The notes under the pieces were generated by a model. That model did not search any database, was not told the DNA's origin, and was given only the letters and a program-made list of their open reading frames with translations. From NCBI GenBank assembly GCA_030753015.1, contig JASMDC010000055.1:1-16847 (forward strand): a stretch of 16,847 nucleotides of DNA, given 5' to 3'. The position numbers and the translations under genes were made by a program. Every line of letters begins with the position of its first letter. The first letter of the stretch is position 1. This document shows, piece by piece, positions 410-15,942 of this stretch. The DNA comes from Candidatus Undinarchaeales archaeon (GTDB lineage Archaea > SpSt-1190 > JASMDC01).

Positions 410-414
410 GGCCC

Positions 415-1194: not shown

Positions 1195-1198
1195 CCTG

Positions 1199-1222: not shown

Positions 1223-1250
1223 TAACTATTTTTCGTACGCGTTCGAAAAA

Positions 1251-1261
1251 AGGCTTTATAG
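1251..1261 (+). promoter_or_regulatory. TATA box with purine-rich BRE, probably leaderless
   Basis: AGGCTTTATAG is preceded by a run of A (GAAAAAAGG), a good BRE plus TATA box. Its centre is about 26-29 bases ahead of the GTG codons at 1283 and 1286, which suggests a leaderless transcript for the first small gene. Confidence 0.6.
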
Positions 1262-1282
1262 CGCCGCGAGAAGATAGGCCCC

Positions 1283-1585: not shown

Positions 1586-1594
1586 GTGATCGAC

Positions 1595-1729
1595 ATGTTA
1601 GTAGTAACATCTACGAAGGCGGCGTGGTGGCCTCGGTCCGTCCCACCGCCACCGGTACCGAGTGGACCCCGTGAGCCGGACGAGCTGCCCGAGCGCTGGG
1701 AGGAAGAGGACGACGACGGAACGGAGTGA
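1595..1729 (+). CDS. Very small proline-rich, acidic-tailed ORF
   Basis: This 44-codon ORF encodes a protein with a short hydrophobic start (MLVVTSTKAAWW), a proline cluster (SVPPPPVPSG) and a strongly acidic end (ERWEEEDDDGTE). No family is recognised. AGGTGATC at 1584-1591 just ahead of the ATG is a near-perfect match to the archaeal ribosome site, which supports separate initiation. It lies in the same reading frame as the membrane protein before it, separated only by that gene's TAG, so it could also be the cytoplasmic tail of a longer protein if the TAG is read through. Codon third positions are GC-rich in this frame. Confidence 0.5.
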   Translation: MLVVTSTKAAWWPRSVPPPPVPSGPREPDELPERWEEEDDDGTE

Positions 1730-1736
1730 TGTGACC

Positions 1737-1928
1737 ATGACGAGCATGAACGATATCAAGGGAGCGATCAAGGAGGCGGCCCGCAAGGTCGCAAAGGAGA
1801 ACGGCTGGACGTACCGCGAGTCGGCGGAGATGGTCAAGGACCTGACCCTCGGGATGATCGAGGGCACCGTAGAGATCCTCACCCAACCTGAAGTGCGGGA
1901 CGGTTGCTGCGGCCCCGACTGCGACTAG
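1737..1928 (+). CDS. Small helical protein with Cys-rich C-terminus
   Basis: The 63-residue protein is mostly helical and charged (IKGAIKEAARKVAKENGW at about 7-24), followed by a second helix and a C-terminal tail DGCCGPDCD with three cysteines. No family is recognised. The tail could bind a metal or form a thiol site, but this is a guess. GGAG at 1723-1726 is placed well for the ATG at 1737. The frame is open back to 1662, but that part overlaps the previous small ORF and has no ribosome site, so I use 1737. It ends in TAG, 22 bases before the next gene. Confidence 0.65.
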   Translation: MTSMNDIKGAIKEAARKVAKENGWTYRESAEMVKDLTLGMIEGTVEILTQPEVRDGCCGPDCD

Positions 1929-1950
1929 CGACGAAGGGGGACGATCCGTA

Positions 1951-2337
1951 ATGAGCAAAGATGTTGACGAGAAGGGGATGCTAGAGTTGCTCGGTGACCT
2001 GGTCGATGCCTCCTTAGGGATAGTCTGGGCGTCCCTCGAGCTGGCTTACGCGTTCGTCGTGGTCTTTGCGAACGTGACCGGCCTCCTCCCCGGGACCGCG
2101 GATACGACCGAGACATTCTCCCTCGGAAAGAAGGCCACTGTCCACGTCAACGACTTCAGCCCGGACAGGGTCGCGGACATGGCCCCCGTGCTCTGCGAGG
2201 TCGAGGACCAGCTCAAACGCCTCTGCAGCAGCGGCCCTGTCGACGTCACGGTCAGCATAGAGGTCGACGGCGGAGACGTCCCCGTCTGCATCGAGGACTC
2301 TGTCCCAAGCGATTCTTGGTCCCTGTCGCACACGTGA
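1951..2337 (+). CDS. Protein of unknown function with N-terminal hydrophobic segment
   Basis: The 128-residue protein has a hydrophobic N-terminal region (about residues 12-47, including GIVWASLELAYAFVVVFANV), probably one membrane segment or hairpin, then a soluble part rich in strands (KATVHVNDFS and VDVTVSIEVDGGDV). I recognise no family. A ribosome site-like AGGGGGACGATC precedes the ATG. It is the last of the four small genes ahead of the ubiquitin-like cluster and ends about 210 bases before it. Its neighbours suggest a membrane-linked accessory role, but nothing in the sequence proves a link to the modification system. Confidence 0.65.
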   Translation: MSKDVDEKGMLELLGDLVDASLGIVWASLELAYAFVVVFANVTGLLPGTADTTETFSLGKKATVHVNDFSPDRVADMAPVLCEVEDQLKRLCSSGPVDVTVSIEVDGGDVPVCIEDSVPSDSWSLSHT

Positions 2338-2429
2338 TGCTCCCCTGGGGGGAAGGAAACCCGGGGGCCGATGACGGCCGTGGGGACGCCACCGCCCCCC
2401 GGCCCGAGGCCCCCGATGTTCACGTCCCG

Positions 2430-2458
2430 GCACGTGAAACGAACCGTGTTTCACGTGC
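2430..2458. promoter_or_regulatory. Perfect 11-base inverted repeat, likely operator
   Basis: GCACGTGAAAC at 2430-2440 and GTTTCACGTGC at 2448-2458 are exact reverse complements with a seven-base spacer. A third half-site, TTCACGT, lies at 2419-2425. The right arm ends eight bases before the TATA box, where a bound dimer would touch the BRE and TFB site. It may control the whole modification cluster. The core matches the ACGTGAAC elements at 1199 and 14847. Confidence 0.65.
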
Positions 2459-2465
2459 TGATAAT

Positions 2466-2475
2466 GCTTTTATTG
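2466..2475 (+). promoter_or_regulatory. TATA box of the ubiquitin-like operon
   Basis: GCTTTTATTG is the only AT-rich box in this GC-rich region. A transcript start near 2497 would leave a leader of about 50 bases with a GGTGA ribosome site close to the ATG at 2550. Confidence 0.55.
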
Positions 2476-2549
2476 CGGCCGAGGCCAACTCCTCATTGAG
2501 CGACGAGGGAGACCCCGTCGCCCCAGATAAAGTGACTCTGGTGAACACT

Positions 2550-2873
2550 ATGGTACAGAACGACGAAAAGACCGTGAAGAAACCGGTCACCGAGCAGAAG
2601 ATGGAAGACGCGCCCACCGCTCCCACGCCGACGGCGACGGATGGCGGCGTCACCCTGCGCGTTGGCGTAGGGCTCTTCCACAAGCCCCGTAACGTGAGCC
2701 TCTCCGGCTCCGAGACCGTGAACGACGTGCGCCATCTCTTAGGTGTGCCCGTCGAGTACGTGGCCGTGGTCCCCGGCAGGGGAGTCGCCGAGGGCGGCTG
2801 CGCTGTGTGCGAGGCAGTCGACGAGGGCGAGGAACTCCTCTTCGTGCCCCTGACCGCCGGCGGATCCCGGTAG
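2550..2873 (+). CDS. Ubiquitin-like modifier (beta-grasp, ThiS/MoaD/Ub type)
   Basis: The 107-residue protein has a flexible, charged and Pro/Thr-rich N-terminus (1-32), then a beta-grasp pattern: first strands VTLRVGVGLF and RNVSLSGSETV, a helix VNDVRHLLG, a strand YVAVVPGRG, and a final EGEELLFVPLTAGG segment typical of ThiS, MoaD and archaeal ubiquitin-like proteins. The diglycine at 104-105 is followed by Ser-Arg, so the protein looks like a precursor that must lose two residues before activation. The JAMM protease two genes on is the likely processing enzyme, and the E1 fusion and E2 in the same operon the likely activation chain. A GCAVC pair at about 83-87 is unusual. GGTGA precedes the ATG at 2550. 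It ends in TAG, in the same frame as the E2 start nine bases later. Confidence 0.85.
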   Translation: MVQNDEKTVKKPVTEQKMEDAPTAPTPTATDGGVTLRVGVGLFHKPRNVSLSGSETVNDVRHLLGVPVEYVAVVPGRGVAEGGCAVCEAVDEGEELLFVPLTAGGSR

Positions 2874-2882
2874 GCGGTTGCC

Positions 2883-3803
2883 GTGTCGTCCGTCGCCGAG
2901 GTGAACCTGCGCGAGCGCGTAGCGTCCGCGGTGGAGGCTGCGCTCTCGGCGTTCGCACGGTTGCACGACCGGCCGCTCACCCTGCTCCCCCTCTCGAACG
3001 GGGAGCTGGCGGCACTTGACGCGGAGATCGACGGCGACGCGCAGGTCGGTCCACGTCAGCAGGTGCGGACGCTGGTGCGCAAGGCGGCCGGGAGACCGAT
3101 CATGCTGGTGGCTGGCGCAGGTCCGGTCAAGACCTATACAATGGCCAGGATGGCCCGCGATGCCTACGACCTCTCGCTGTGCATGGCGACGTTCATCGTG
3201 CGCGAGCTCGAGCACCTTCCAGAGGTGCTGGAGGCCGCCCGTCTTGAGAAGCGGTTGGTCGCAGCCAACAACCTGGGCAGGCTGGGATTCCGTGTACAGG
3301 ACGAGCGCGGGTCTCGATTCTCGGGAAAGGTGGAGGTGCGCAAGGGGCCGATCAAGGGGAGCTATAGGATGGATGTGCTCCTCCCGCCCCGGTTCCCCGA
3401 CACCCAGCCGTTCTTCCGGCTGGTCGACGTGCCGCGCCACCCCAACGTCTACGACAGCGGCGACGTGTGCCTGGGCCACTTCGTGTGGAACCCGGCGCTG
3501 GACATCACCGTCCTGGTGGAGCAGGTGCGTCACGTGCTGGAGAACCCGAATTACGAGGACGGATTGCACCGGGAGGGCGACGAAGAACAGGAGGAGCTCT
3601 CGGAGAACAGCGTACGTCTGCTGTCCCTGGTCGCTGAGCTTGTCAGTGAGCGGAAGCCCAGTGTGACCTACGCCGAGATACGGCAGGTGGCCTCGGAGCG
3701 CGGAGGGATGAGCCACGACGAGATCGATGGCGCGATACAAGAGCTCATCACCAGGGGCGAGATCTTCGAGCCCCAAGCTGGAAGGTACCAGCCGCTCATC
3801 TGA
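2883..3803 (+). CDS. E2-like ubiquitin-conjugating enzyme with C-terminal winged helix
   Basis: The 306-residue protein contains a clear UBC fold at about residues 115-223. It has HPNVYDSGDVCLGHFVW, that is the HPN motif at 186-188, the catalytic Cys196 and Trp202, followed by the NPN segment typical of classical E2 enzymes. It would carry the modifier as a thioester. Residues 1-110 form an extension I do not recognise. The C-terminus (about 240-306) resembles a winged helix of the MCM C-terminal type, ending GEIFEPQAGRYQPLI, and is separated from the E2 core by an acidic linker. The start is GTG at 2883, with only a weak ribosome site; it lies nine bases after the TAG of the modifier gene and in the same frame. 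A GTG at 2901 is a weaker option. The JAMM gene follows after 16 bases. Confidence 0.88.
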   Translation: MSSVAEVNLRERVASAVEAALSAFARLHDRPLTLLPLSNGELAALDAEIDGDAQVGPRQQVRTLVRKAAGRPIMLVAGAGPVKTYTMARMARDAYDLSLCMATFIVRELEHLPEVLEAARLEKRLVAANNLGRLGFRVQDERGSRFSGKVEVRKGPIKGSYRMDVLLPPRFPDTQPFFRLVDVPRHPNVYDSGDVCLGHFVWNPALDITVLVEQVRHVLENPNYEDGLHREGDEEQEELSENSVRLLSLVAELVSERKPSVTYAEIRQVASERGGMSHDEIDGAIQELITRGEIFEPQAGRYQPLI

Positions 3804-3819
3804 ACAGGTAGTGATCCAT

Positions 3820-4290
3820 ATGGGAGAGCTGAAAGAGGGAATTGGCGAGGATAAGGGAGTGGGGATCCCCCACGTCCTCATAGATAGGGACATCGAGCGC
3901 GATATGTATGCCGCTGCCATGGCGCAGTACATCATCAACGGCGGGGAGGCGTCGGGACTCTTGGTAGGCAGGGTTGAGGCGGACGTCGTTACCGTCACGT
4001 CAGCACCCCATATGCCCGGCGAGAGCGAGCACTCCTTCTGTCGCATCCCCCCCCTCACGGCCGCCGAGCTGGCGGCCTCGCTGCCCGACGACGTCGCCGT
4101 GGTCGGCTGGTGGCACTCCCACCCCAGGTTCGCGCGAACGCCGAGCGCCACGGACCTCGCCACCATCGACTCCATGGTGCGGTCGTCACCTCTCGTGGTG
4201 TCGGTAATCGTCGACCCACTGGTCTGCGCAATGGACGTCTACATCACCGACGACAGCGGGACATGGCACGTGGATGGAGGGTACGGGTGA
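3820..4290 (+). CDS. JAB/JAMM metalloprotease (Rpn11-like deubiquitinase)
   Basis: The 156-residue protein carries the full zinc-protease motif: Glu43 in GGEASGLLVG, then WWHSHPRF with His99 and His101, and Asp112 in SATD, giving an exact HxHx10D spacing. Such enzymes cleave after the C-terminal glycine of ubiquitin-like proteins. Here it would remove the Ser-Arg tail of the modifier, release it from targets, or both. Length matches a lone JAB domain. I start it at the ATG at 3820, preceded by AGGTAGTGATCC; the frame is open to 3727, but that would overlap the end of the E2. It overlaps the next gene by one base (TGATG), which suggests coupled translation. Confidence 0.9.
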   Translation: MGELKEGIGEDKGVGIPHVLIDRDIERDMYAAAMAQYIINGGEASGLLVGRVEADVVTVTSAPHMPGESEHSFCRIPPLTAAELAASLPDDVAVVGWWHSHPRFARTPSATDLATIDSMVRSSPLVVSVIVDPLVCAMDVYITDDSGTWHVDGGYG

Positions 4291-6953
4291 TGCCGAGTCT
4301 CGCTAGGCTGGCGCTTGACCGGGAACGTTCGCGGGCGCGGTCCAATAACAGGGGCGGGACGGAGCCATCTCTTGGTAGTCTGCTCGCGTTAGTTAGCAAT
4401 GAAATGGAACAAATCCCGGAGATCGAGCTCGGGGGGGAGGAGGTTGCGGACACGTCGCGCGAGCTCGCAGAGGCGCTCGGCCGCAACGATTATCGAGAAG
4501 CTATCATATTCCTAGTGATCCTGGTAAGGATGACCCGATCGATCATCGAGAGAAGTGGAGCGCATGAGATGCAACCGATAAACGGCTCGGTGGTCCGCTC
4601 GCTCCTCCGGTCCACTGAAGAGCTCGAGTGGATCCACGGCGATGGTGACGATCTCCCAGGAAAGCTCGTGTTCCGCCTGGACGAGGGTCTAGTAACGGGA
4701 ACCGAGCGTGCATTGGAGAACGAGGACCCCCGCGTGGTGGAGTACTGGAGGGCCTCCGGCCGCTGGCTCGAAGAGAGCGCTAATCCCGACCACGGGGAGA
4801 GGCCGAGGTGGCCGGAGGGATCCGACCCGACCGTGCCGCGACCTGGGCTCCCGCTCTCCTTCCTGTGCACGGCCCACGCGTGGGCCTTGGCGGCCATCCT
4901 GCGCTCCTGCTCTACACTCCGACGGGGGCGGTACCTCGTCTACCTGCAACTGCTCCACCCTCTCGCTGTGTCGCTCGACCTGCTGCGCCAGCTCGATGAC
5001 GAGCACGACAGGTACCTGACAGTGAGGGATGGCGAGGATGAGGATGGCATCTTCTTCCACGAGGCGCTCGACGTGCTCGCCCGTGAACGGGCCTCTTTGG
5101 AGAGAGTTGTGGCAGACCACCTCTCCTCGCTCTACGGCCTCGAGAGGCTAGAGTTCATCCCGCCCCTCTGGCTTGAGGGGCAAGTGAACATCGAGAGGCC
5201 GCGCCCCGCTGGCAGGGAACGTAATGTCGGGCATCCGGTGACCGAATCGGCCAGCCGCATTACGGTCTTTCTGGCGAGCCGGGACCTTGCAGGCTCGGTG
5301 GAATCGCTTGCCCGGGCCTGCGCTGCTACGACGGACGCGCTCGACCCGGTCCACGGCGTCCCGTGGCACAGGAGGACCCACTTGGCGGACAGGTTGAGGT
5401 CGACCGCGTGCGACATCGCCTGGGGGATGAACCGCATCCAGAACAGCGGGGGAGTGGTCGCTGACATGGCGACGATAACCCGCTTCCTCAGGCACGTGGA
5501 GGGAAGGACGGACAACAGCTATGGATCGCCCATCGCGTGGACCCTCGACGCCTTCAGGATGCTGGCCGAAGAACACTTGCTGGCGATGGCCGACGCTCTC
5601 GATCCGCCTTCGGCCGGCGAGGTGGGAGTCCGACCCGACCATACCCAGTTCGGCGGCATCCCCTACCAGTTCTCGTCGGGTGTAGCACTCTCAAGAGCGC
5701 GCGAGCACCTCCGCCGGTATGACGGTCCACTTTCGTCGGAAGGTCTCGGCGGGGACTGGGGCGAGGAAGAGGGTGCTCGGCTTCTAGCCGCTCTCCGGGA
5801 GCTGGTCCGGTCGCGTGATGGGCTGGCCGCCGCCATCGACATGATGATCGCGCGGGAGAACGAGGACATGACACATCTCACCGACGGCCACGTGCTCTGG
5901 GGGGACGGGCTGGCGGCCGTGCCGCGCCTGGAGCCGGTGTCCGAGGAAACACACCGTGATGAGGGGGGGACGCTCGAACGGACCGTCCGGAACGCCGTCG
6001 CGCTCGAAGACGGCACGGGCATGCTCCACTATGTGTACCCACGCTTCATCGACCGGGCGCTGGACATCATCGAGGAGCGCGGGAACGATATCCGCCCCCT
6101 CGGGACGAGCGGCTCTGGTGAGCTGGTGATCGAGATCAACGGCCGGGTGGTGACCGCTCACCGCAACCTCGACTACTACACATGCTCGTGCGAGGACTCG
6201 CACTACCGTTCAGCAGAGGACCGACACTTGTGCAAGCACGTGGCGGTCGCGGCCATCCTGTTCGGTGACTTCGAGCTGCGAGAGGATCTGCACCTGCAGC
6301 GGGCAGAGGCCCTCTCCACACAGTTCTCTGACATCAGGGAGCGGGTGCTCGCCGAGCGCGGTGGCCGTGCCGATCATCTCAGGCAGACCGTACTGCGACA
6401 GCTGGTGGGGACGACGGACAGGAACGGAATTGAACTCCGTCAACGTCGGGCTGAGCTGCATGATCGCATCCGGAACCTTGAGGTACAGCGTATGGAGACG
6501 CCCCTCCACAACCAAGAACTACGCCGGGAGCTCCGGCAGGAGCTGGAGCGATACAACCTCGAGCTCGAGTCCATCAACAGACCGCTGGAAGGGGCGGGGC
6601 CGGCCAGGCGCAGGCCCGGCGAGGTGCCAAGGAGGGGGGGACCGGACGTTCTGGAGGGGCAGAGGGAGATTCTCAGGACCAGGATCATGGACATCCAAGC
6701 GAATATCGAAGAGATCAACGCGCGGATAAGGGGAGAGGAACCCGAGGTTCTCGAAGGTAACGAGCGCCGGGAACTCATTCGCCAGCAGGCGTCCCTTGAG
6801 CAAGAGCTAGCACGGTCAAGGCACCGGTTGGAAGACGTCCAGCACCAGCTCCAGCGGTCCGAGGCCCACGGTCGCTCCGGACCGGTCACGCGAGCAGTAG
6901 TGCGGGCGCCACCAGGGATGTGGGAGTGCGCGCCACCGGGGGAGGGGAGCTGA
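4290..6953 (+). CDS. Large SWIM zinc-finger protein with coiled-coil C-terminus
   Basis: The 887-residue protein has three parts. Residues about 1-560 are a helical region of no known family that is shared with the E1 fusion and the second large SWIM protein; a clear signature is RLRSTACDIAWGM at 368-380 and HLLAMADALDPP at 429-440. A SWIM zinc finger follows at about 605-655, with Cys632, Cys634, Cys648 and His650 (CSC then CKH). Residues about 670-865 are rich in Glu, Arg, Gln and Leu and should form coiled coils. The tail ends GMWECAPPGEGS. SWIM domains bind proteins or nucleic acid; some eukaryotic ZSWIM proteins are substrate receptors of cullin ligases. Here an E3-like or adaptor role is inferred from the operon. 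The start overlaps the JAMM stop, with GGAGGG at 4275-4280. Confidence 0.85.
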   Translation: MPSLARLALDRERSRARSNNRGGTEPSLGSLLALVSNEMEQIPEIELGGEEVADTSRELAEALGRNDYREAIIFLVILVRMTRSIIERSGAHEMQPINGSVVRSLLRSTEELEWIHGDGDDLPGKLVFRLDEGLVTGTERALENEDPRVVEYWRASGRWLEESANPDHGERPRWPEGSDPTVPRPGLPLSFLCTAHAWALAAILRSCSTLRRGRYLVYLQLLHPLAVSLDLLRQLDDEHDRYLTVRDGEDEDGIFFHEALDVLARERASLERVVADHLSSLYGLERLEFIPPLWLEGQVNIERPRPAGRERNVGHPVTESASRITVFLASRDLAGSVESLARACAATTDALDPVHGVPWHRRTHLADRLRSTACDIAWGMNRIQNSGGVVADMATITRFLRHVEGRTDNSYGSPIAWTLDAFRMLAEEHLLAMADALDPPSAGEVGVRPDHTQFGGIPYQFSSGVALSRAREHLRRYDGPLSSEGLGGDWGEEEGARLLAALRELVRSRDGLAAAIDMMIARENEDMTHLTDGHVLWGDGLAAVPRLEPVSEETHRDEGGTLERTVRNAVALEDGTGMLHYVYPRFIDRALDIIEERGNDIRPLGTSGSGELVIEINGRVVTAHRNLDYYTCSCEDSHYRSAEDRHLCKHVAVAAILFGDFELREDLHLQRAEALSTQFSDIRERVLAERGGRADHLRQTVLRQLVGTTDRNGIELRQRRAELHDRIRNLEVQRMETPLHNQELRRELRQELERYNLELESINRPLEGAGPARRRPGEVPRRGGPDVLEGQREILRTRIMDIQANIEEINARIRGEEPEVLEGNERRELIRQQASLEQELARSRHRLEDVQHQLQRSEAHGRSGPVTRAVVRAPPGMWECAPPGEGS

Positions 6954-9613
6954 TGCCCGATATATTCGACCGAGCAGTCCAGGAGCTCGAGAGCACCAGG
7001 AATGATGGACATGACTCCAACGAGCGCGCGCTGCAGCTCGCCAACATCGTGCACCGGCACGCCGAGGCGGAGTTCGGTGTCGACGGGCTCGAGCGCTCTC
7101 TTGACCCGCTGGCGACGTGCCTGCACGGCCGCGCGCACGCGGGAGAAACGTACGCCTGTCTCGTGCTACTCGCCGCCGCGTGCGACATCGCTGCGGACGT
7201 TGTGAACAGTACACGAGATGGTGGAGGGAACGTCCGTCAGCAACACACCCGGCCTCTACTCCAGATCGCGGGCGATCTCCTCTTCAATGATGATAGCACC
7301 CTCATCAACCAGCGGGAGGTCGTGCCCGGCTCCTTGGGCGAGGTCGTCATGGTGCCTGCCCGTGCAGGGACGCTGACACGTCCGCACGATGAAGACCGAG
7401 AGGGCCGATCTCATGACGACCTGCTCGCCTGGTGCGCGGTCCACCTCTGGGCCATCGGGCGAATCCTCGACGAGTGCTCGGGCGACGGCTTGAGCGCTGC
7501 CGGTATCGCGCGATTTGCCACGGTCGTACGGGCGCTGCGCACATTGGACCACGCGCAGTTCATGCACGCCGAGATCGAGGAGTACCCATGGGAAAGGGAT
7601 GCCTATGTGGAAGCTGCGCTCGCAGCTCTATTCAACAAGCGCAGCCGCCTGACGGGTCGGCTCGCCCAGTCCCTGCGCGACCGGCTCGGGCTCGAGCCGC
7701 CGCTGTTCATACGGCCGGGCGCACAGTTCATTCCAGGGAGGTTGTCGGTGGAGGACTGGGACCGGACCACCGTTAGGGAGGCTCTGGAGGTGGCCCGCCA
7801 CCTGGATGCTGGTGAGCTCAACGACGCACTCCGGTCCCTGGCACGGGCCATCCACGCCGGACTTAACGCGGACGACATCGGTCAGGATGAGCGGAGCACG
7901 ACCGCCCGTCGACTGCGGGCGATCTCCTGCGGCATCGCTTGGGGGATGGCGGCCCCGGTGGCGTACGACGACATGAACCGCGCCATGGGTGAGCTGGTCA
8001 GCTTCACGCGGGAGTGCTTCCAGATCAACCTTCCTGAAACGCGCGAACCGGGCCTCCCGCGGGCCGTCCGGGCGCACGTCGAGGCGCATCTGGAGGCGCT
8101 GGCGGTCGCGATCGATCCACCTCACGCCATTACATCCCGGGACGCGCCGCGGGCGTCCATCTGGCGCGGGCAGTCCGATCTGTTCCGTGTACCGCGGGAC
8201 CTGAGCGCCGACCACATCATCTCAAGTGTCCACGACCGGCTCCGTGTGCACAATCCGAGTTCCGACAACGTCGACCGGGTGAGCGACGAGCGTCGGGACG
8301 CCGAGGAGGAGCTCGCGAGGGCCCGGGGTCAGCTGCTCTCCTTGCTGGAGGAGATGGAGGACCAGGCAGACATCATGCTCGAGGACGACGATGCCATCTG
8401 GCCATTGCGCGGGATCGTCATCCCCTTAATCCCGGGCGCCACCGGTGAACTGCAAGGGGAAGGGGTGCCGTTCTTCGAGATGGAGTACCGGCGAGACGGC
8501 ACTCCCCTGAACATAGACATAGATTCCGAAACCGGCCAGCTGATCCGCACCACGGGGACCGCTTCACGCGGGAACATAATCCCGGACATCGCCACCCGCT
8601 ACCTGGAGGCCGCCGAGGAGCACGGGAGGGCCAGGGACGAGGCCGCGCGGCATGGCCTGCGGCGGTCGCGGGAGGAGCGGTTCTCCCGACAGGAGGCGGT
8701 CCCCGGATGGGACCAGGGCAGGTTACGGCGGGCCGTGGTCGTGGTCGCCGGAGTGGGCGGCCTGGGCGCGGCGGTGGTGGACCAGCTGGCACGGATGGGC
8801 GTCGGGACGGTCCGCGTCGTCGACCACGACCGGGTGGAGGACTCCAACATCTCGCGCCAGTGCCTCTACATCGCCGACGACGTCGGGAGCCTCAAGGTGG
8901 ACGCTGCCGCGCGACGGGTGTCGGACCTCGACGGGCCCACCCGCGTGGTCCCGCGACCCGCGTACTTATGCGAACGCAACGCTCTCATGCTGGTGGCCGG
9001 CGCCGACGTGGTGTTCGACTGCCTGGACAGCGAGAAGAGCAAGCACCTGCTCAACCACGCGTGCGCGCGGGCGGGGGTACCGCTGGTCCACGGGGGATGC
9101 ACGGGATTCATCGGGCAGGCGATGGCCGTGGTGCCGGGACGGACGGCGTGCCTGGCGTGCCGGGAGCTTACCTTCTCGGTGGCGGACACGGCCAGCTGCA
9201 CCCGCGACGAGACCCTGCCCATCGTGGCCCCCACGGCCCAGCTGGTGGCGTCCCTGCAGGTGGATCTGGCCCTGCACGTGCTCATGGGGACGGGCGACGT
9301 GCCGTCGGGGCTGCTCCTGTACGATGGCCGCGGGCCGGGCGTGCGGTCCGTGCCGGTGGAGCGCAGGGACGACTGCCCTGTGTGCGGAGGTAACGGGACG
9401 ACGGACGACGATGTGCGGACGGCGCTCTCACTCCAGTCTCAAGATTCCCTGCTCCAGATCGCCGGGGCCGTGGGGATGGAGCACGCCGACGGGATGGACA
9501 CCAGCAACCTCGTCGAAGCGCTCGTCGACGTGTTCTCGGCCCTCCCTGACGGCAGGCACCGTGCGCTACGACTGGCGTCGGGCGTGCAGTTCATCGAGGA
9601 GGCGATGTCGTGA
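6953..9613 (+). CDS. E1-like activating enzyme (ThiF domain fused to long N-terminal region)
   Basis: The 886-residue protein has a ThiF/E1 adenylation domain at about 588-815. It shows GVGGLG at 600-605, VVDHDRVEDSNISRQ, two CxxC zinc pairs (Cys733/736 and Cys808/811) and TASCTRDE with Cys749 at the place of the catalytic cysteine of E1, MoeB and UBA enzymes. It should adenylate the C-terminal glycine of the modifier and hold it as a thioester for the E2. The first 480 or so residues match the N-terminal region of the large SWIM proteins, for example RLRAISCGIAWGM at 320-332 and HLEALAVAIDPP at 379-390. Such a fusion is much longer than the roughly 250-residue MoeB/ThiF type. ATG overlaps the preceding stop (TGATG) behind a GGGGGAGGGGAG ribosome site. 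Confidence 0.9.
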   Translation: MPDIFDRAVQELESTRNDGHDSNERALQLANIVHRHAEAEFGVDGLERSLDPLATCLHGRAHAGETYACLVLLAAACDIAADVVNSTRDGGGNVRQQHTRPLLQIAGDLLFNDDSTLINQREVVPGSLGEVVMVPARAGTLTRPHDEDREGRSHDDLLAWCAVHLWAIGRILDECSGDGLSAAGIARFATVVRALRTLDHAQFMHAEIEEYPWERDAYVEAALAALFNKRSRLTGRLAQSLRDRLGLEPPLFIRPGAQFIPGRLSVEDWDRTTVREALEVARHLDAGELNDALRSLARAIHAGLNADDIGQDERSTTARRLRAISCGIAWGMAAPVAYDDMNRAMGELVSFTRECFQINLPETREPGLPRAVRAHVEAHLEALAVAIDPPHAITSRDAPRASIWRGQSDLFRVPRDLSADHIISSVHDRLRVHNPSSDNVDRVSDERRDAEEELARARGQLLSLLEEMEDQADIMLEDDDAIWPLRGIVIPLIPGATGELQGEGVPFFEMEYRRDGTPLNIDIDSETGQLIRTTGTASRGNIIPDIATRYLEAAEEHGRARDEAARHGLRRSREERFSRQEAVPGWDQGRLRRAVVVVAGVGGLGAAVVDQLARMGVGTVRVVDHDRVEDSNISRQCLYIADDVGSLKVDAAARRVSDLDGPTRVVPRPAYLCERNALMLVAGADVVFDCLDSEKSKHLLNHACARAGVPLVHGGCTGFIGQAMAVVPGRTACLACRELTFSVADTASCTRDETLPIVAPTAQLVASLQVDLALHVLMGTGDVPSGLLLYDGRGPGVRSVPVERRDDCPVCGGNGTTDDDVRTALSLQSQDSLLQIAGAVGMEHADGMDTSNLVEALVDVFSALPDGRHRALRLASGVQFIEEAMS

Positions 9614-10479
9614 GCACCGGATTCCCTGGAGCAGCGCCCCGTGTGTACGGGCGACGAATGGGTCGGGGGCCGACGGTCGAGGTCTACGAGGAGGGATTCG
9701 TCGTCGAGCGCTGCCCGACTTGTGGCAGGCACCTCAAGGATATGACCGACTGGCCGAATGTAAGGGTTACCGGGATCGAGGACGCGGTGGACGACGTGCG
9801 CCGCGAGTCCCTTTCGCGGCTGGTGCGGCGCGGGCCCTTCCTGCTCCAGTGGGGGACCGTGCCGGGATGCGCGAGCGGAGCGATGCAGCGGTGCCTGGTC
9901 GACGAGCTGGGCCTGAACTGGGCGGCCGGGGCCGAGGTGCACCCGGTCGGCGACAGGTCGGTCCTCGTCATTAGAGGTCGGCGGTGGTGCATGGTCACCC
10001 TCGATCAGGACGAGCTCGTCGCGCACCTCGAGGTGGATGATGGGAGGAGGCTCGAGCTGGGCGTCGCTCGACTCGGCGACCGTGTCGACCTCCATATCCC
10101 TCTCGACGACGACGATGTCGATGATAGGACCGCTCCTTACCTCTGGGCCCGGAACCCCGCTGCGGTGCACTCCGCGAGGGCTGCTGTAGCCCATCTCAAG
10201 GGATTCGTCGGCACGGACGCGGATCCGGACCGGATAGCTGAGCTGTGGCGCGCCGAGGGATTCAGCGGACCATGGGCCCGTTACCACGAGTTCAGGGGTG
10301 TCCGGATCGTGCAGGTCGGCGGTTACGCGCTCTACCTCGACGACAACGTCCTTACGCTTGTCGACGCGGACAGGATCGGCGGTGGGCTCGACGGTCCTCC
10401 GCCGGTGACGTTCCGTCTGGCGCGGGTGCTGTACGAGGGGATGCTGCACGAAGAGCGGAGCGGTGGCGGCAGTGGCTGA
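9610..10479 (+). CDS. Protein of unknown function with one CxxC motif and Gly-rich end
   Basis: I recognise no family. The 289-residue protein has CPTCGRH at about residues 35-41, one half of a possible zinc site, then a mixed region with several predicted strands (SVLVIRGRRWCMVTL, VRIVQVGGYALYLDDNVLTLV) and acidic runs (DDDDVDD). It ends in SGGGSG. The GTG start overlaps the E1 stop by four bases (GTGA) and has a strong GAGGAGG ribosome site eight bases ahead; ATG at 9658 is a weaker alternative. Its position directly after the E1 gene and ahead of the second SWIM gene makes it a likely part of the same complex or pathway. The single CxxC pair would need a partner cysteine pair, or a dimer, to form a full zinc finger. 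Confidence 0.75.
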   Translation: MSTGFPGAAPRVYGRRMGRGPTVEVYEEGFVVERCPTCGRHLKDMTDWPNVRVTGIEDAVDDVRRESLSRLVRRGPFLLQWGTVPGCASGAMQRCLVDELGLNWAAGAEVHPVGDRSVLVIRGRRWCMVTLDQDELVAHLEVDDGRRLELGVARLGDRVDLHIPLDDDDVDDRTAPYLWARNPAAVHSARAAVAHLKGFVGTDADPDRIAELWRAEGFSGPWARYHEFRGVRIVQVGGYALYLDDNVLTLVDADRIGGGLDGPPPVTFRLARVLYEGMLHEERSGGGSG

Positions 10480-12286
10480 GGACGGAACGATCCTTCTCGC
10501 GTGCGAACGCGCGCACCACCAGGCCGTCGCCGGGAAGAGGGATGACATGATGGAGTGCCTCCGGTTCGCCGGTGATAGTATCTCTAACATCATGCGCACC
10601 CGGTCTTTCTCGCGACGACCGCGTGCCCGTTCCATGGATTCATTGCAGTTGGACGAGCGAATTGCGTCCTTGTCAGCCCACCTCATCACTGGTGGCACAG
10701 GTCCCGCCCCGGGCCCACGAGTGATCGCAGTACCCCTTGACACGGGGCGGACGTGCCCTGACCTCAGGGACGGACCATTAGACACACAACTACATCTGTG
10801 CTGCCCCCCGCGCACGTTGTGCGCGGCGGAATTATGGACGCTCTCCCGCGTCTTTCACTTGGCCATCTGCGGCGCAGGTGACGTGCATGAGCGCATAGTC
10901 ATGTCCGACCTCGTACGCATAGGGAGAGCGCTCACAAGCCTGACCGATCCCCTGTTCCCTTTTGGGGGGGTCGCCTCCGGGTTGGGAGACGACCTCTTTA
11001 TGTACCCTCTTGATATGCTCTCCTTTAACCGGACTTCATCGGATGACGGTGCGGATGCAAGGCACGCAGTCGTTCGGGAAAGGCTCGACGATGTCGCGCA
11101 GGTCGAGCGCCACCATATCGTCGACGTTGCCCTGGACGCGGCCCTCGGCCTCCAGTGCGGCAGGACCGAGGACATGGCGCGCGGCCTCACCTCCCTAGAG
11201 GAAATGTGCCGGATAACCGCGTCGGTCCTGGAGGGCGGGACGGAAGAACCCGGTGAGAGGGACGTCACGCTCCTCCGGTTCATATCAGCCACCCTTGCAC
11301 TGGAGGACGTCATCGCGGCGACTGAGACGGATATCTTCTTCGATACCATGGAGCTCGGAAGGTCCGTGCTCACGTCAAGTTATATCGGGGCGTACTACGG
11401 CGGGATGCCGGACCCCGTACAGTTCAGGCTGGCGTGCGAGCACCATATCGAGGCATGCGCGAGCGCGCTCGACACCAGAGCGGACCTATCGGGGGCAGTC
11501 TGGCAGGGCGTGGGTCAGTGGTATCAGCTCGGTCCCGACGAGGGGGTGGTCCTTCCGCTCCTGAACGCCCGGGAGCGACTCATGCGGTACAGGTCAGACT
11601 TCAGACCCCCGGAGGACGCTGTGGATCACGAGGTCACGTCAGCGTCCAGAGCCCTGTCGCGGCAGCGCGACCAGCTCCTTGACGTGCTGGACGCACGGAT
11701 CGCTGCTCTGACGGAGGGCGCTATGAGAACTGCAGGGCGTCGGTACGTATCGCTCTCGTATCCCGAAGGAATAGTCGCCGCCGCAGAGGGCGCAACGGTC
11801 GGGCCCGACGTACCGGGCGACCAGGTCTGCGCGACCGTTCGGAGCGGGGAACACCCTGAATGGGATGTGACCCGGTGGACGCTGGTACAGGCCCAGCACT
11901 TCATCAAGAAGCACGGGTATCTCATCGATCGCCTGGGTACCAGCCAAACGGGCGAGCCGGTGCTTGTCGTGGACTCGCACGTAGTGGCGCTGGGTCAGGA
12001 CAACCTGGATCGAGACCGCTACCGCCCCCTCTACGAGTGCTACTCATGCCGGGAGTTTCGTGAGCAGAACGGGACCCGACCCCGGCTCTGCAAGCACCTA
12101 ACGGCGGCGCTCATCATCATGGGCCGACTGGGTGAGCGCGAGGGTGTCGACCTCAGCCTGCTCGACCGGGCCCTCGCATTGATAAGGGAGGAGGTCGGGA
12201 TGACGGGCATCCGCGGGCGGTACCGCAGCAGCGCGTGCGCGGGCGACGGGGTATGGGAGTGTCGGGCGCCAAGGGAGGGGGTATGA
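10463..12286 (+). CDS. Second large SWIM zinc-finger protein
   Basis: The 607-residue protein repeats the plan of the SWIM protein at 4290: a helical region (about 1-450) that resembles the E1 fusion and the first SWIM protein, then a SWIM-like finger, then a short tail. Shared marks include AVWQG at about 345-349, matching SIWRG in the E1 fusion, and GTSQTGE just ahead of the finger. The finger reads ECYSC then LCKH (Cys526, Cys529, Cys543, His545), so the first pair is CxxC where SWIM normally has CxC. The end is GVWECRAPREGV. I start it at GTG 10463, overlapping the previous gene by 17 bases; GTG 10472 is about as likely. ATG at 10547 has a better codon, but residues before it still align with the E1 fusion (AVAGKRDD with AHAGETYA), which favours an earlier start. 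Confidence 0.8.
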   Translation: MAAVAEDGTILLACERAHHQAVAGKRDDMMECLRFAGDSISNIMRTRSFSRRPRARSMDSLQLDERIASLSAHLITGGTGPAPGPRVIAVPLDTGRTCPDLRDGPLDTQLHLCCPPRTLCAAELWTLSRVFHLAICGAGDVHERIVMSDLVRIGRALTSLTDPLFPFGGVASGLGDDLFMYPLDMLSFNRTSSDDGADARHAVVRERLDDVAQVERHHIVDVALDAALGLQCGRTEDMARGLTSLEEMCRITASVLEGGTEEPGERDVTLLRFISATLALEDVIAATETDIFFDTMELGRSVLTSSYIGAYYGGMPDPVQFRLACEHHIEACASALDTRADLSGAVWQGVGQWYQLGPDEGVVLPLLNARERLMRYRSDFRPPEDAVDHEVTSASRALSRQRDQLLDVLDARIAALTEGAMRTAGRRYVSLSYPEGIVAAAEGATVGPDVPGDQVCATVRSGEHPEWDVTRWTLVQAQHFIKKHGYLIDRLGTSQTGEPVLVVDSHVVALGQDNLDRDRYRPLYECYSCREFREQNGTRPRLCKHLTAALIIMGRLGEREGVDLSLLDRALALIREEVGMTGIRGRYRSSACAGDGVWECRAPREGV

Positions 12287-13032
12287 TGCCTGGCGGGAGC
12301 GGGGAGGGCGCCAGCTCCTGGAGCGACCGGCAGAGGGAGCTCGCCGAGTACGCCGGTATAATCCTGATGGAGGAGGGTGAGACCTTCGAGCAGGCGGAGA
12401 GGCGCCAGGAGAGGGAGATGCGTGAGCGCGGGGCCAGGCGCACAGGAGTTACCGGCGAGCAGACCGGCCAGGCTCCTGGGCAGCGACCGCGCGAGGTGTC
12501 CGGGGCGTCTTCGGACAGCGCGTCCCGGGGCGGGGCGCCGGCGGCGGACCTCGAGGGCGCGAGGACCGGCGGGCGGGACCGACCGGCGTGGACCACGTGG
12601 CGGGATCCGGGAGGCGTCGAGTGGCGGATCACGCTGGACAAGCTCAACAGGGCCGCCAACATCCTCCTGACCGAGTTCGACCTCAGGCGCATGGGCACCA
12701 GCGCGGTCGGAGAGATCGTGCTCGAGATCGCGTCCCGCGTCGTCACGGTGAACCTGGAGCGCCGCTACTGCGTGTGCTCATGCGAGGACTACCGCTCAAG
12801 CAGCGAGGGGGACCACCACCTGTGCGAGCACGTAGTGGCCGCGCTCTTCATCATGGGGGAGCTGGGGGAGCGCGAGGGCATCGATCTCGGCCTCTTCTCC
12901 CCGCTCGTCCCCGCGATCAGGAACTGGCTCCTTTTCGATGGGAACCCTGATACCCTTGCGGAGGACGGGAAAGGGCGGAGCGAGGGTTGGGAATGTCGGC
13001 CACCGGGGGATGGGAGGGAGTGCGACGGGTGA
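12283..13032 (+). CDS. Small SWIM zinc-finger protein
   Basis: The 249-residue protein lacks the shared N-terminal region. It begins with a Gly/Ser-rich and charged helical stretch (about 1-55), a low-complexity linker (55-100), then GTSAVGEIVLEI and a SWIM finger with Cys165, Cys167, Cys181 and His183 (CSCEDY then LCEH). After that comes MGELGEREGIDLGLF, nearly the same as in the second large SWIM protein (MGRLGEREGVDLSLL). The tail contains GWECRPPGDGRECDG. It looks like the finger part of the large SWIM proteins cut loose, perhaps a competitor, adaptor or substrate. Start is the ATGATG at 12283, overlapping the previous stop by four bases behind a GGGAGGGGG ribosome site. Confidence 0.82.
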   Translation: MMPGGSGEGASSWSDRQRELAEYAGIILMEEGETFEQAERRQEREMRERGARRTGVTGEQTGQAPGQRPREVSGASSDSASRGGAPAADLEGARTGGRDRPAWTTWRDPGGVEWRITLDKLNRAANILLTEFDLRRMGTSAVGEIVLEIASRVVTVNLERRYCVCSCEDYRSSSEGDHHLCEHVVAALFIMGELGEREGIDLGLFSPLVPAIRNWLLFDGNPDTLAEDGKGRSEGWECRPPGDGRECDG

Positions 13033-13126
13033 GGGTGACAGCGGGGCCGACAAGCTGGTGGACCCATGGCGGTCGCTGGCATGCTCGTGCTGCGGCACGG
13101 GTGATGATGAAGGAGGTGTTCCGATC

Positions 13127-13351
13127 ATGACGATGTACACGGTGAAACGGATGAAGGGAGGATGGTCTGTCCACGACCACGTCGAGGACGAGGACTTCGA
13201 GATACCGGACGGCGCGGTCATCACCTACGAGGTGCGGACGCGGCTCACCGGTCCGGAAGAGATGATGGAGGTCGTCGGATCCAAGACTGGCAAGCTGGCA
13301 CTGGTGGCGGCGGTGTGCATGATGCCGTGCCCGGAGGAGGTGGCGGGATGA
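13127..13351 (+). CDS. Small protein of unknown function (74 residues or longer)
   Basis: From the ATG at 13127 the protein has 74 residues with alternating strand-like stretches (YTVKRMKGGWSVHDHV, AVITYEVRTRL, LALVAAVCMM) and ends PEEVAG. A small beta-rich fold is likely; a beta-grasp is conceivable but I see no GG end and do not claim it. AAGGAGGTG eight bases ahead of the ATG is a very strong ribosome site. The frame stays open upstream with coding-like GC-rich third positions and a CSCCGTG cysteine cluster, so starts at GTG 13058 or ATG 13010 (inside the SWIM gene) remain possible. It overlaps the next small gene by four bases. Confidence 0.65.
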   Translation: MTMYTVKRMKGGWSVHDHVEDEDFEIPDGAVITYEVRTRLTGPEEMMEVVGSKTGKLALVAAVCMMPCPEEVAG

Positions 13352-13476
13352 CGCTGTGCAGGATGCGCCAGGCCGGGATCGAGCCCGTCTCGTATCATGT
13401 CGGCCCGGTCCTGCTCGTCTACCATTTCATGCTGAAGCGAGCGCTGAGGGAGATGAGACGTGTGAAGGGGAGGTGA
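13348..13476 (+). CDS. Very small basic protein with hydrophobic centre
   Basis: The 42-residue protein runs from a short N-terminus through a hydrophobic middle (HVGPVLLVYHFML) to a very basic end (KRALREMRRVKGR). No family is recognised. It could be a short membrane-anchored or nucleic-acid-touching peptide. Its ATG overlaps the previous stop (ATGA), GGAGGTGG precedes it, and nearly all codons end in G or C, so it is likely to be real in spite of its size. Confidence 0.6.
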   Translation: MTLCRMRQAGIEPVSYHVGPVLLVYHFMLKRALREMRRVKGR

Positions 13477-13491
13477 TGGAGGAGAGATCGT

Positions 13492-13689
13492 GTGCTGAAC
13501 GCCTTCGTCAGGCTGGTGGTGGATATACTCCCGCTACCGCTCGGCCTGACGGCGGGGGTGCCGGGCATCTCGTCCGGCACGAGCCTCGAGGGTAAAGCGC
13601 ACCCGGCGGGCGGAGGGCTCGCGCGGGGCGGGGAGAGAGGCGGTGAGCCGTCCATGGCGGAAAGACGGAAAAAGGTGACACCCATATGA
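13492..13689 (+). CDS. Small protein with hydrophobic N-terminus and Gly/Arg-rich tail
   Basis: The 65-residue protein starts with a hydrophobic stretch (about residues 3-26, AFVRLVVDILPLPLGLTAGV), which may be a membrane anchor, and ends in a low-complexity Gly, Arg and Lys-rich tail. No family is recognised. GTG at 13492 lies about eight bases after GGAGGAG. Third positions are strongly GC-rich in this frame and not in the competing frame from ATG 13476. It overlaps the nuclease gene by four bases (ATGA), so translation is probably coupled. Confidence 0.55.
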   Translation: MLNAFVRLVVDILPLPLGLTAGVPGISSGTSLEGKAHPAGGGLARGGERGGEPSMAERRKKVTPI

Positions 13690-14597
13690 CACCGACAGAA
13701 CAAGGGGAAAGATCCATGCCCGAACTCGAGGACTGGTTCCATAGGTACAACAAGTGGTCGTTCAGCAAGCACAGGCTCTGGAACGAGTGCAGGCGACAGT
13801 ACTGGTACCGGTACATCGGCACGGCACTGCGGACCTCTGATGAGGTGGACGTTGCGCGACTGAAGGCCTTGCGCGGGCTGACACCCCGCGCCGCCCTCGA
13901 GGGTATGCTGGTCCACGATGCGATCGAGAAGCAGATGGACCGCTTCGCCAGAGGGATGACCGTCAATGAGGAGCTGGCGGCCAAGCACCTCGTCAGCGAG
14001 ATGGCCAAGTTCACGGGAACACCCCGGGATAAGATCATCGAGTTCCACAACGGCGTCGAGCAGCCCGAGAACTACTTCGAGCGGGTGCAAGACGGGGGCA
14101 TCGGGAAGCTCGGGACGTTCTTCGCCAAGATATGGCCACGCATCGAGGGCTCGGAGCACCTGAGGCACGAGAAGTTCGACGAGGTCACGGTGGGCGACGT
14201 GGTCGCGACCGTGAAGGTCGATCTCGCATGCCGGATGGCCGACGACACGATCGTCGTCTACGACTGGAAGACAGGGCGCGAGGATCCCGCGTACGAGAGC
14301 GAACTCCAGCTCGGCGCCTACGTGCTGTGGGCGAGCCGGTATTACAGCGCAGCACCGGAGAAGGTGCGGAGCGAGCTTGTGTACCTGGCGACCGGGAACG
14401 TACGCAGGCACGAGTTCTCCGCCGAGCAGCTCGACAGGGTAGGGCTGCTGATCGTGTCGGACTTCAAGAGGAGGAACAGCTCGTACGAGATGGGCGCGTT
14501 CTCCCCCGACCCCGGTCCGTGGAAGTGCCAGGGGTGCCGGTTCGCGACTGTGTGCCCCCACTCGCTGCACGGGGAGGCGCCGGGAGGAGGTCCCTGA
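13686..14597 (+). CDS. RecB/Cas4-type PD-(D/E)XK nuclease with Fe-S cysteine set
   Basis: The 303-residue protein has the marks of PD-(D/E)XK nucleases of the AddB/Cas4/RecB group (PDDEXK_1). These are His77 in GMLVHDAIE, Asp179 in VKVDLACR, Asp193 and Lys195 in VYDWKTG, and the ELQLGAY motif with Gln208 and Tyr212. Four cysteines, Cys35 in WNECRRQYWYRY and Cys281, Cys284 and Cys290 near the C-terminus, match the split 4Fe-4S cluster of this group. It should cut or resect DNA, probably single-stranded ends. There is no helicase domain, as in Cas4-like stand-alone forms. The start at 13686 has GGTGAC ahead and overlaps the previous gene by four bases; ATG 13716 is a second option. It closes the ubiquitin-like cluster and is likely co-transcribed with it. 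Confidence 0.85.
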   Translation: MTPTEQGERSMPELEDWFHRYNKWSFSKHRLWNECRRQYWYRYIGTALRTSDEVDVARLKALRGLTPRAALEGMLVHDAIEKQMDRFARGMTVNEELAAKHLVSEMAKFTGTPRDKIIEFHNGVEQPENYFERVQDGGIGKLGTFFAKIWPRIEGSEHLRHEKFDEVTVGDVVATVKVDLACRMADDTIVVYDWKTGREDPAYESELQLGAYVLWASRYYSAAPEKVRSELVYLATGNVRRHEFSAEQLDRVGLLIVSDFKRRNSSYEMGAFSPDPGPWKCQGCRFATVCPHSLHGEAPGGGP

Positions 14598-14611
14598 TCC
14601 ACCTGCTGTCA

Positions 14612-14621
14612 CGAATTAAAA
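14612..14621 (+). promoter_or_regulatory. Possible TATA box after the nuclease gene
   Basis: CGAATTAAAA is an AT-rich patch right after the nuclease gene. A transcript start near 14643 would fit the ATG at 14655. The perfect ten-base palindrome GGATCGATCC (14634-14643) lies at that expected start. Confidence 0.35.
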
Positions 14622-14654
14622 GACTAGATGCATGGATCGATCCGAGGGAAGGAC

Positions 14655-14852
14655 ATGCGCACCAGGATCACCACCATAGGCCAGAGCGAGAACGCCATCA
14701 CCCGCCCCCCGTGGGCGACGTGCAAGCTCGACGGCTTCGTACCGGACCGAGCGGTGCTCATGGATCCTGGCAGCAGGGGCGTGGACCGGGATGCCCTTAA
14801 GGCCTCGGTAGCGCCCTCGTGCACGTGCGGAAGGATCCCAGCGCCAACGTGA
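14655..14852 (+). CDS. Small ORF, possibly a broken CARF-like N-terminus
   Basis: The 65-residue product starts with RTRITTIGQSENAITRP and continues to DGFVPDRAVLMDPGSRG. This recalls the first strand, helix and second strand of CARF-type proteins, which often begin with xxSTxGxSP and have a later strand of the form DRVVLL. The end (SCTCGRIPAPT) does not fit. Another frame that is open at 14801-14899 reads VHVRKDPSANVNVTLLHVRG, which does look like a continuation, so a frameshift may have split an older gene. GGGAAGGAC precedes the ATG. Third positions are GC-rich. It may be a small gene in its own right; the CARF reading is tentative. Confidence 0.4.
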   Translation: MRTRITTIGQSENAITRPPWATCKLDGFVPDRAVLMDPGSRGVDRDALKASVAPSCTCGRIPAPT

Positions 14853-14874
14853 ACGTCACCCTGTTACACGTACG
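14846..14874. promoter_or_regulatory. ACGTGAAC element ahead of a TATA box
   Basis: ACGTGAAC at 14847-14854 is identical to 1199-1206 and is followed after 12 bases by CACGT at 14867, giving an imperfect inverted arrangement. It ends about eight bases before the TATA box at 14882, the same placement as the 2430-2458 palindrome relative to its TATA box. Confidence 0.4.
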
Positions 14875-14881
14875 CGGAATT

Positions 14882-14891
14882 CTTTTATATC
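14882..14891 (+). promoter_or_regulatory. TATA box, leaderless promoter of the ABC region
   Basis: CTTTTATATC is a strong archaeal TATA box. The ATG at 14912 lies about 25 bases from its centre, so the transcript probably starts at or next to the ATG. Confidence 0.6.
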
Positions 14892-14911
14892 GCCCCTGAC
14901 TCCTCTTTTCC

Positions 14912-15067
14912 ATGGACGCAGACGACACGGTAGGCGGCCACATCGAGCAGGCGATCATCGGCGACGACGCCGTGGGGATGGTGATGCCGCTGGCCGTCGC
15001 GGGCGACGAGCTGGAGCGGCTCGCCGGGCCCACCCGGGAAAAAAACACTCTAGAGCTGATAGCGTGA
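14912..15067 (+). CDS. Very small ORF coupled to the ABC ATPase
   Basis: This ORF encodes 51 residues (start MDADDTVGGHIEQAI, acidic, with a short hydrophobic part DAVGMVMPLAVAG). No family is recognised. Support comes from the well-placed TATA box and from its end: the stop overlaps the GTG of the ABC ATPase in a GTGA. It could be a true small protein, the remnant of a larger gene, or a leader ORF that controls translation of the transporter. Confidence 0.4.
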   Translation: MDADDTVGGHIEQAIIGDDAVGMVMPLAVAGDELERLAGPTREKNTLELIA

Positions 15068-15942
15068 CATTGAGGATCGAGGGCCTGACGAAGAGCTTCG
15101 ACAGCAAGACAGTCCTCAACGACATCTCCTTCTCCGTGGACAGGGGGGAGGTGTTCGGCCTCCTCGGCCCCAATGGTGCGGGAAAGACCACCATGATCCT
15201 GATCATCCTTGACATCCTCGGACCCGACTCGGGTCGGATTTCCATCTTCGGAGACCGTCTCTCTGAAGCGATCAAGGACCGGATCGGATACCTGCCCGAG
15301 GAGAGCGACCTGTACCCGAACGTGACCGTCCGCGATTGCATCAGGTATTTCTCCCGGTTGAAAGGGTTCGATGCCACCGACGAACGGATCGATCACTGGC
15401 TTCAGAGGATGAAGCTCGGGGAGTACGGGGACAAGAGCGTGGAAGAACTGAGCAAGGGCATGCAGAGATTGCTGCACATCATCATCTCGTTCATACACGA
15501 GCCGGACTTCCTCGTCCTGGACGAACCGTTCTCCGGGCTGGATCCGGTGAACAAGGAGCTGGTCAAGGACATCGTACTCGATCTGAAATCCAGAGGCATG
15601 ACCATCATCATGAGCACCCATCAGATGGACGAGGTCGAGAAGATGTGTGACCGGATCCTCATGATCAACAAGGGCGACCAGGTACTCTACGGGAACCTGA
15701 ACGAGATCAAGGGCCGGCACGGATCATCCATCGTCGTTGCATACGAAGGGGAGCTCCCTCCCCTGGAAGACATCGAGCGGGTGAACGATTACGGTAACTT
15801 CGCGGAGTTGATCATCGGGAGGGGGGCGGACCCGCAGGCCATCCTGAGAGAACTGGTGGAGAGGGTGACTATACGCAAGTTCGAGGTCAAGACCCCTTCG
15901 CTGGACGAGATCTTTATCGAGGTGGTCGGGAATGAGGAATAA
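15064..15942 (+). CDS. ABC transporter ATP-binding protein (ABC-2/NatA type)
   Basis: The 292-residue protein has all ABC ATPase motifs: Walker A GPNGAGKTT at 35-43, a signature LSKGMQR at about 129-135 in place of LSGGQ, Walker B VLDEP at about 151-155, SGLD, and the H-loop in STHQMDE. The LPEESDLYPNVTV stretch and the C-terminal accessory part (after about residue 215) are typical of ATPases that serve ABC-2 exporters such as NatA. It would power the permease encoded next, exporting an unknown substrate. Its GTG start overlaps the small ORF before it. The end overlaps the permease start by 11 bases. Motif content is canonical and not obviously linked to the ubiquitin-like cluster. Confidence 0.93.
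   Translation: MTLRIEGLTKSFDSKTVLNDISFSVDRGEVFGLLGPNGAGKTTMILIILDILGPDSGRISIFGDRLSEAIKDRIGYLPEESDLYPNVTVRDCIRYFSRLKGFDATDERIDHWLQRMKLGEYGDKSVEELSKGMQRLLHIIISFIHEPDFLVLDEPFSGLDPVNKELVKDIVLDLKSRGMTIIMSTHQMDEVEKMCDRILMINKGDQVLYGNLNEIKGRHGSSIVVAYEGELPPLEDIERVNDYGNFAELIIGRGADPQAILRELVERVTIRKFEVKTPSLDEIFIEVVGNEE

Follow-up and report, generated by a model that had tools for sequence, protein, structure and literature searches.

An archaeal ubiquitin-like conjugation operon with SWIM-type proteins as its possible ligase layer

Contig JASMDC010000055.1 of a Candidatus Undinarchaeales archaeon (GenBank assembly GCA_030753015.1), which we analysed over 16,847 nucleotides (positions 1 to 16,847 of the forward strand, hereafter called the window), carries an operon of eight genes, all on the + strand (2550-13032). 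They encode, in this order, a ubiquitin-like modifier, an E2 conjugating enzyme, a JAMM isopeptidase, a first SWIM protein (SWIM1), an E1 activating enzyme, a protein of 289 amino acids and two further SWIM proteins, SWIM2 and SWIM3 (table 1). We read this operon as an archaeal ubiquitin-like conjugation system in which the SWIM proteins may constitute the ligase or receptor layer of a complex linked to E1, and assign to this reading a probability of about 0.5. Prokaryotic ubiquitin-like systems show the possible origin of eukaryotic ubiquitylation, and among the parts of these prokaryotic systems it is the E3 layer that is understood least. The operon combines a complete E1-E2-JAMM core with ligase candidates that are domain-swapped siblings of E1 and has no RING motif; it would represent a compact and testable different solution for E3, and the C-terminal tail common to the SWIM proteins (starting with WEC) offers a specific handle on how its parts find each other.

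The three enzymes of the core match the profiles of their families, with intact motifs, far beyond chance. The E2 is recognised by Pfam UQ_con (PF00179) at 5.8e-12 (45.8 bits, cut-off 27) and retains the active site HPN-x7-Cys (HPNVYDSGDVC, ending in Cys196), its best matches in PDB being Ubc13/UBE2N. The JAMM protein is recognised by Pfam Prok-JAB at 1.3e-10 (41.6 bits, cut-off 25), has the motif HSH-x7-S-x2-D and matches Rpn11 and Caldiarchaeum Rpn11 in PDB, while the E1 is recognised by Pfam ThiF (PF00899) at 1.2e-52 (178.9 bits, cut-off 28.1) and contains GVGGLG, two CxxC pairs and a cysteine within SCT that aligns with the cysteine of Caldiarchaeum-type E1s. A tree of E1 proteins, affected by long branches, gave no stable position for the operon E1. 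The joints between genes through SWIM3 are either TGATG or GTGA overlaps or spacings of 9-16 nt. An earlier note on this DNA had claimed an E2 of the UBC family at 2883 with HPN and catalytic Cys, a JAMM protease with exact HxHx10D, an E1-like enzyme of the ThiF/E1 family at 6953 with catalytic Cys and a modifier ending GG-SR, all on one strand with overlaps or gaps of less than 20 bases through the core, and these claims are borne out throughout.

The modifier, whose C-terminus is LTAGGSR, has no match in Pfam or other library scans, and a profile of the ubiquitin-like proteins (UBLs) that adjoin archaeal E2s also fails to detect it. A profile built from nine ThiS-like proteins that belong to the phylum of this archaeon scores 19.0 bits with the modifier (the maximum being 9.5 in 1000 shuffles that kept the tail), and hhalign gives a probability of 94.5% with the GG motifs aligned. 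The modifier is thus most likely a beta-grasp protein of the ThiS/MoaD/SAMP type with two residues beyond GG.

SWIM3 is 46% identical to SWIM1 over 70 residues and 36% identical to SWIM2 over 169 residues (blastp), a mutual homology on the basis of which we consider the three proteins as one family. The E1 shares the scaffold of SWIM1 and SWIM2: its residues 162-554 align with residues 194-624 of SWIM1 (1.6e-14 in blastp), and its similarity to SWIM2 is weaker; the alignment with SWIM1 ends just ahead of the finger. This homology points to a single scaffold in three versions, which bear ThiF in E1 and SWIM in SWIM1 and SWIM2, and by sequence comparison the operon E1 is a SWIM-protein scaffold with ThiF where the finger would be. 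The three-fold internal paralogy, with identities of 25-46% and open frames, argues that these genes are under selection and functional.

Beyond their diverged linkers, all three SWIM proteins share the C-terminal tail WEC(R/A)xPx(E/D)G. In the genome of 3.85 Mb, the DNA motif of this tail is present at three places only, precisely the three SWIM gene ends (0 and 1 occurrences in the backward-read control), and the triple identity was reproduced in none of 400 shuffles. We rejected the possibility that the tail serves only as a ribosome-binding site for the gene that follows: this fits copies 1 and 2, but copy 3 ends some 95 nt ahead of the following start (13127). The spacing of copy 3, together with the differences between copies at synonymous positions (GAG/GAA, TGC/TGT), makes it more likely that the tail is conserved as a peptide than as a DNA signal.

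Table 1. Coordinates of the operon genes, their tails and the adjoining features in the window
Feature	Positions	Strand	Basis
TATA-like box TTTTATT, probable operon promoter	2468..2474	+	simple scan of non-genic sequence
Ubiquitin-like modifier, ThiS/MoaD/SAMP type, ends LTAGGSR	2550..2873	+	ThiS-like profile, hhalign
E2: N-terminal extension, UBC core (Cys196), C-terminal winged-helix-like region	2883..3803	+	UQ_con
JAMM/JAB isopeptidase	3727..4290 (start may be ATG 3820)	+	Prok-JAB
SWIM1: helical scaffold, finger (~6183-6239), long charged linker, WEC tail	4290..6953	+	CxCx14CxH
SWIM1 tail WECAPPGEGS	6921..6950	+	motif 3x in genome
E1: scaffold domain (~7433-8611) fused to ThiF (~8708-9382), catalytic Cys near 9197	6953..9613	+	ThiF
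289-residue protein of unknown family, single CPTC pair, C-terminus SGGGSG	9610..10479	+	overlaps both neighbours
SWIM2: scaffold, variant finger CxxC...CxH (~12038-12097), WEC tail	10463..12286	+	homology to SWIM1, E1, SWIM3
SWIM2 tail WECRAPREGV	12254..12283	+	shared motif
SWIM3: finger (~12769-12831), no scaffold, WEC tail	12286..13032	+	homology to SWIM1/SWIM2
SWIM3 tail WECRPPGDGRECDG	12988..13029	+	shared motif
Three small open reading frames (13127-13351, 13348-13476, 13492-13689)	13127..13689	+	overlapping/close joints, Shine-Dalgarno-like sequences
PD-(D/E)XK nuclease, Cas4-like, four Cys as in Fe-S forms	13686..14597	+	PDDEXK_1 1.9e-19

In the mechanism that we propose, the adjacent JAMM would be the natural maturing enzyme for the modifier, because the Rpn11 of Caldiarchaeum cleaves its own modifier precursor exactly after Gly-Gly (PMC6043591); it would trim SR and so expose Gly-Gly. 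The ThiF-type E1 would adenylate the modifier and receive it on the SCT cysteine, the E2 would accept it on Cys196 and the modifier would be delivered to lysines of targets, from which JAMM could later take the tag off again. Maturation, E1-E2 relay and deconjugation are steps of well-known families, and we hold this part of the scheme to be highly probable. Since no RING pattern is present in any of the six frames of the window, the SWIM proteins become the candidates for a ligase or substrate-receptor layer that would keep E2~modifier beside the targets, a tentative assignment by position and analogy to which we would give somewhat less than even odds. As to the previous claim of SWIM proteins replacing a RING E3, the RING motif is indeed missing from the window, and the replacement is a matter of functional interpretation. 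The scaffold common to E1 and SWIM1/SWIM2 suggests that these proteins assemble into one complex, and the WEC tail may be a docking or regulatory motif, perhaps binding a common partner; both proposals are likewise drawn from position and analogy. As the genome encodes two proteasome-family genes, it is possible that the tag serves proteolysis. A wider proposal, namely a RING-independent class of ligases in which SWIM proteins share the scaffold of their own E1 within a single E1-E3 machine that the WEC tail holds or regulates, seems to us somewhat unlikely; no description of such an arrangement was found for any domain of life.

Several features of the operon recur in known systems. The operon of Caldiarchaeum subterraneum (CsUb, E1-like, E2-like, srfp RING E3 and Rpn11), the E1/E2/E3/Rpn11 cascade of which has been reconstituted (PMC5654768; PMC6043591), is equally archaeal and combines a catalytic E1 (with the same aligned Cys), an E2, a JAMM protein and a modifier precursor extending past GG; Caldiarchaeum-type E1 and E2 were also the best matches in the fetched loci (3.8e-39 and 1.3e-9). 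It differs in having a small RING E3 of the srfp type, which is absent from the window, an E1 without scaffold, no SWIM proteins and a modifier that is ubiquitin-like, whereas that of our operon is ThiS-like by profile. Other archaea have triads of UBL, E2 and JAMM genes by a plain ThiF E1 (loci L055, L057, L062 and others), with the same gene order and an adjacent E1 and, in the case of L062, a UBL ending GGSR like our modifier, but their E1 lacks the scaffold, their E2 lacks the N-terminal extension, their UBL belongs to another profile family and no SWIM protein accompanies them. Such triads with a UbaA-like E1 were seen in archaea with genomes of 1.3-1.9 Mb (L055-L064, families f35 and f93), where no RING or SWIM gene was recognised nearby, apparently forming an E3-less tagging set.

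Sampylation in haloarchaea (SAMP/UbaA/HvJAMM1) likewise employs a ThiS-like modifier, a UbaA-like ThiF E1 and a JAMM protease, and its conjugation requires neither E2 nor E3, whereas our operon carries a catalytic E2 and so departs from conjugation by E1 alone. The bacterial E1/E2/JAB/UBL operons (PMC1779556), Bil and CBASS Cap2/Cap3 follow the same E1+E2+JAB logic, with or without UBL, but contain no SWIM protein, and their E1 lacks the fusion to the scaffold of our operon, the matches being at domain level only. In particular, the E1 of Bil consists of an inactive and an active adenylation domain (PMC11354881), whereas that of our operon has a single ThiF domain and, in its N-terminal half, the SWIM scaffold. 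Among ligases, the ubiquitin ligase of ZSWIM8 has SWIM as a central organiser, and the domain belongs to the receptor of ZSWIM8-CUL3 (PMC12803205); the likeness would be of role only, the Cullin-RING machinery being absent from the operon.

Searches for relatives of the operon gave E2 matches in 22 of 394 archaeal genomes (252 genera). The neighbourhoods read comprise one Caldiarchaeum-type cluster with RING, clusters in large genomes, presumably Asgard-like to judge by size and content, and many of the triads described above, and a SWIM-like protein is present in none of them. With the scaffold profile, none of these 394 genomes gave a convincing match, and the profile of the SWIM family matches proteins of other genomes over the bare finger only. 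(Weak matches in genomes G249, G276 and G292 were not accepted as relatives, since they cover short stretches only, that of G249 lying in the coiled linker.) The operon is absent also from the other genomes of its phylum examined. Searches of plasmids, phages and viral contigs, together with a scan of GTDB contigs for the motif, brought up nothing beyond ordinary ThiF genes and a single Bacteroidota contig with E1, UBL, E2 and JAB; no copy of the SWIM or E2 proteins was found on the plasmids or viral contigs searched. The scan of viral and GTDB contigs for the E2 motif used a hand-built alignment of which the first row is real and the others were partly invented for a wider pattern; the Bacteroidota contig (JAHDCM010000352.1, L020) was its sole E2 match. 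Similar in general type to the bacterial operons above, this contig of 4.3 kb holds E1, UBL and E2 together with a long JAB protein, and its E2 motif, HPNVYESGDVC, is very near that of the operon E2.

Recurrence of the gene order beyond one genome, set as a test by the earlier note, was therefore not found as far as our sampling reached. No archaeal UBL operon with SWIM proteins was found described in a literature search covering few subscription journals, in line with the claim that no described system has this E1 fusion and three SWIM proteins. Of the proposal of a distinct archaeal conjugation system, the complete operon, the unusual E1 fusion and the three SWIM-type proteins stand, and the distinctness rests on one genome. 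From these comparisons, the core is already known and the accessory SWIM/scaffold layer is new, as seen once. The base composition of the contig agrees with that of the other contigs of the genome, which makes a wrong binning unlikely.

Some results weigh against the reading that we favour. SWIM1 and SWIM3 score 14.4 and 17.1 bits with Pfam SWIM (PF04434), below its cut-off of 19.6, and SWIM2 does not match this family, its first pair being C-x-x-C; the three SWIM-finger proteins claimed before are thus upheld in kind rather than in strength. No usable structure model was obtained for the 289-residue protein or for SWIM1 aligned with its paralogues (predicted local distance difference test, pLDDT, of 37 and 40), both models being too poor for fold search, and the mostly helical nature of the scaffold is predicted with low confidence. 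Lacking relatives of the scaffold/SWIM family elsewhere, the operon as a unit has no comparative support. Moreover, archaeal triads without SWIM or obvious RING genes nearby suggest that E3 may be dispensable.

Conjugation might indeed be E3-free, with the SWIM proteins as dedicated targets or effectors that the scaffold docks on the complex containing E1 and that have their binding of nucleic acid or protein switched by tagging. The triads agree with this explanation, having no SWIM-like genes and, in those read, no RING motif beside them, as do the position of the Cas4-like nuclease 3' of the SWIM genes and the general capacity of SWIM fingers to bind nucleic acid or protein. Conversely, that SWIM occurs in three copies ending in the same tail, and that E1 has the scaffold as well, is more suggestive of machine parts than of targets; this is not decisive, and we regard the explanation as rather unlikely. 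Alternatively, the operon could be an antiviral module in which the nuclease, together with the SWIM proteins, recognises or cleaves foreign DNA while tagging keeps an effector primed or silent, as in CBASS/Bil. The nuclease within the probable transcription unit, CARF-type genes on the same contig and the restriction of the operon to a single genome of the phylum are consistent with defence, but PADLOC gave domain-level matches (JAB, ThiF or nuclease) and no whole-protein system match, the SWIM and E2 proteins have no copies on the mobile and viral sequences mentioned above and no integrase or mobility gene was recognised among the window proteins scanned, so that we find it clearly unlikely. 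The suggestion of a role in defence or stress accordingly keeps its circumstantial signs, the Cas4-like nuclease and the CARF-type genes, and loses force from the domain-level matches and the lack of any mobile or recurrent copy. Finally, a sulphur-transfer pathway with a thiocarboxylate carrier instead of protein tagging is very improbable, for although the modifier and E1 belong, within their families, to the ThiS/ThiF side, the operon holds a catalytic E2 and an Rpn11-like JAMM without any sulphurtransferase or cofactor gene, and the genome encodes further ThiS-like proteins as well as another ThiF.

Turning to the surroundings of the conjugation operon, a simple scan of non-genic sequence on the + strand of the window detected TATA-like boxes at 1254, 2468 and 14883 only, from which the transcription unit may span the modifier gene through three small open reading frames to the Cas4-like nuclease; these additional genes (to 14597) probably belong to it. 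The three small frames have no significant match in family searches. The nuclease matches the cas4 profile at 1.5e-8, below the cut-off of this profile, and its cysteines are at positions 35, 281, 284 and 290. The 289-residue protein has no match in library scans or PDB; its glycine-rich end also contains GG (ERSGGGSG), and it is conceivably a second substrate of JAMM or E1. Just 5' of the operon, two or three small open reading frames (1283-2337, + strand) follow their own TATA-like box at 1254, and family searches with two of them gave no match. Further upstream lies a gene for a CARF-type protein of HFX_2341/DUF6293 (415-1155, - strand; 1.4e-9). Downstream of the operon, L023:2331-2813 gives a weak Card1/Csa3-like match, and a short open reading frame at 14628-14852 (+ strand) resembles the start of its protein, possibly as a remnant.

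In genome G326, L067:8229-10447 shows a further layout, in which an E1 (ThiF) with a UBL-looking N-terminus precedes an E2 with HPN-x7-C and the gene of a possible JAMM relative. In the genome of the operon itself, four tandem E2/UEV-like repeats occur in a protein of up to 703 residues, encoded on contig C26 (L024:10097-12208, - strand), which matches UQ_con in four stretches (6.8e-23) as well as RWD and UEV; HPN-Cys is absent by eye. The gene of this multi-UEV protein, which looks unusual for an archaeon, adjoins that of a zinc-ribbon membrane protein.

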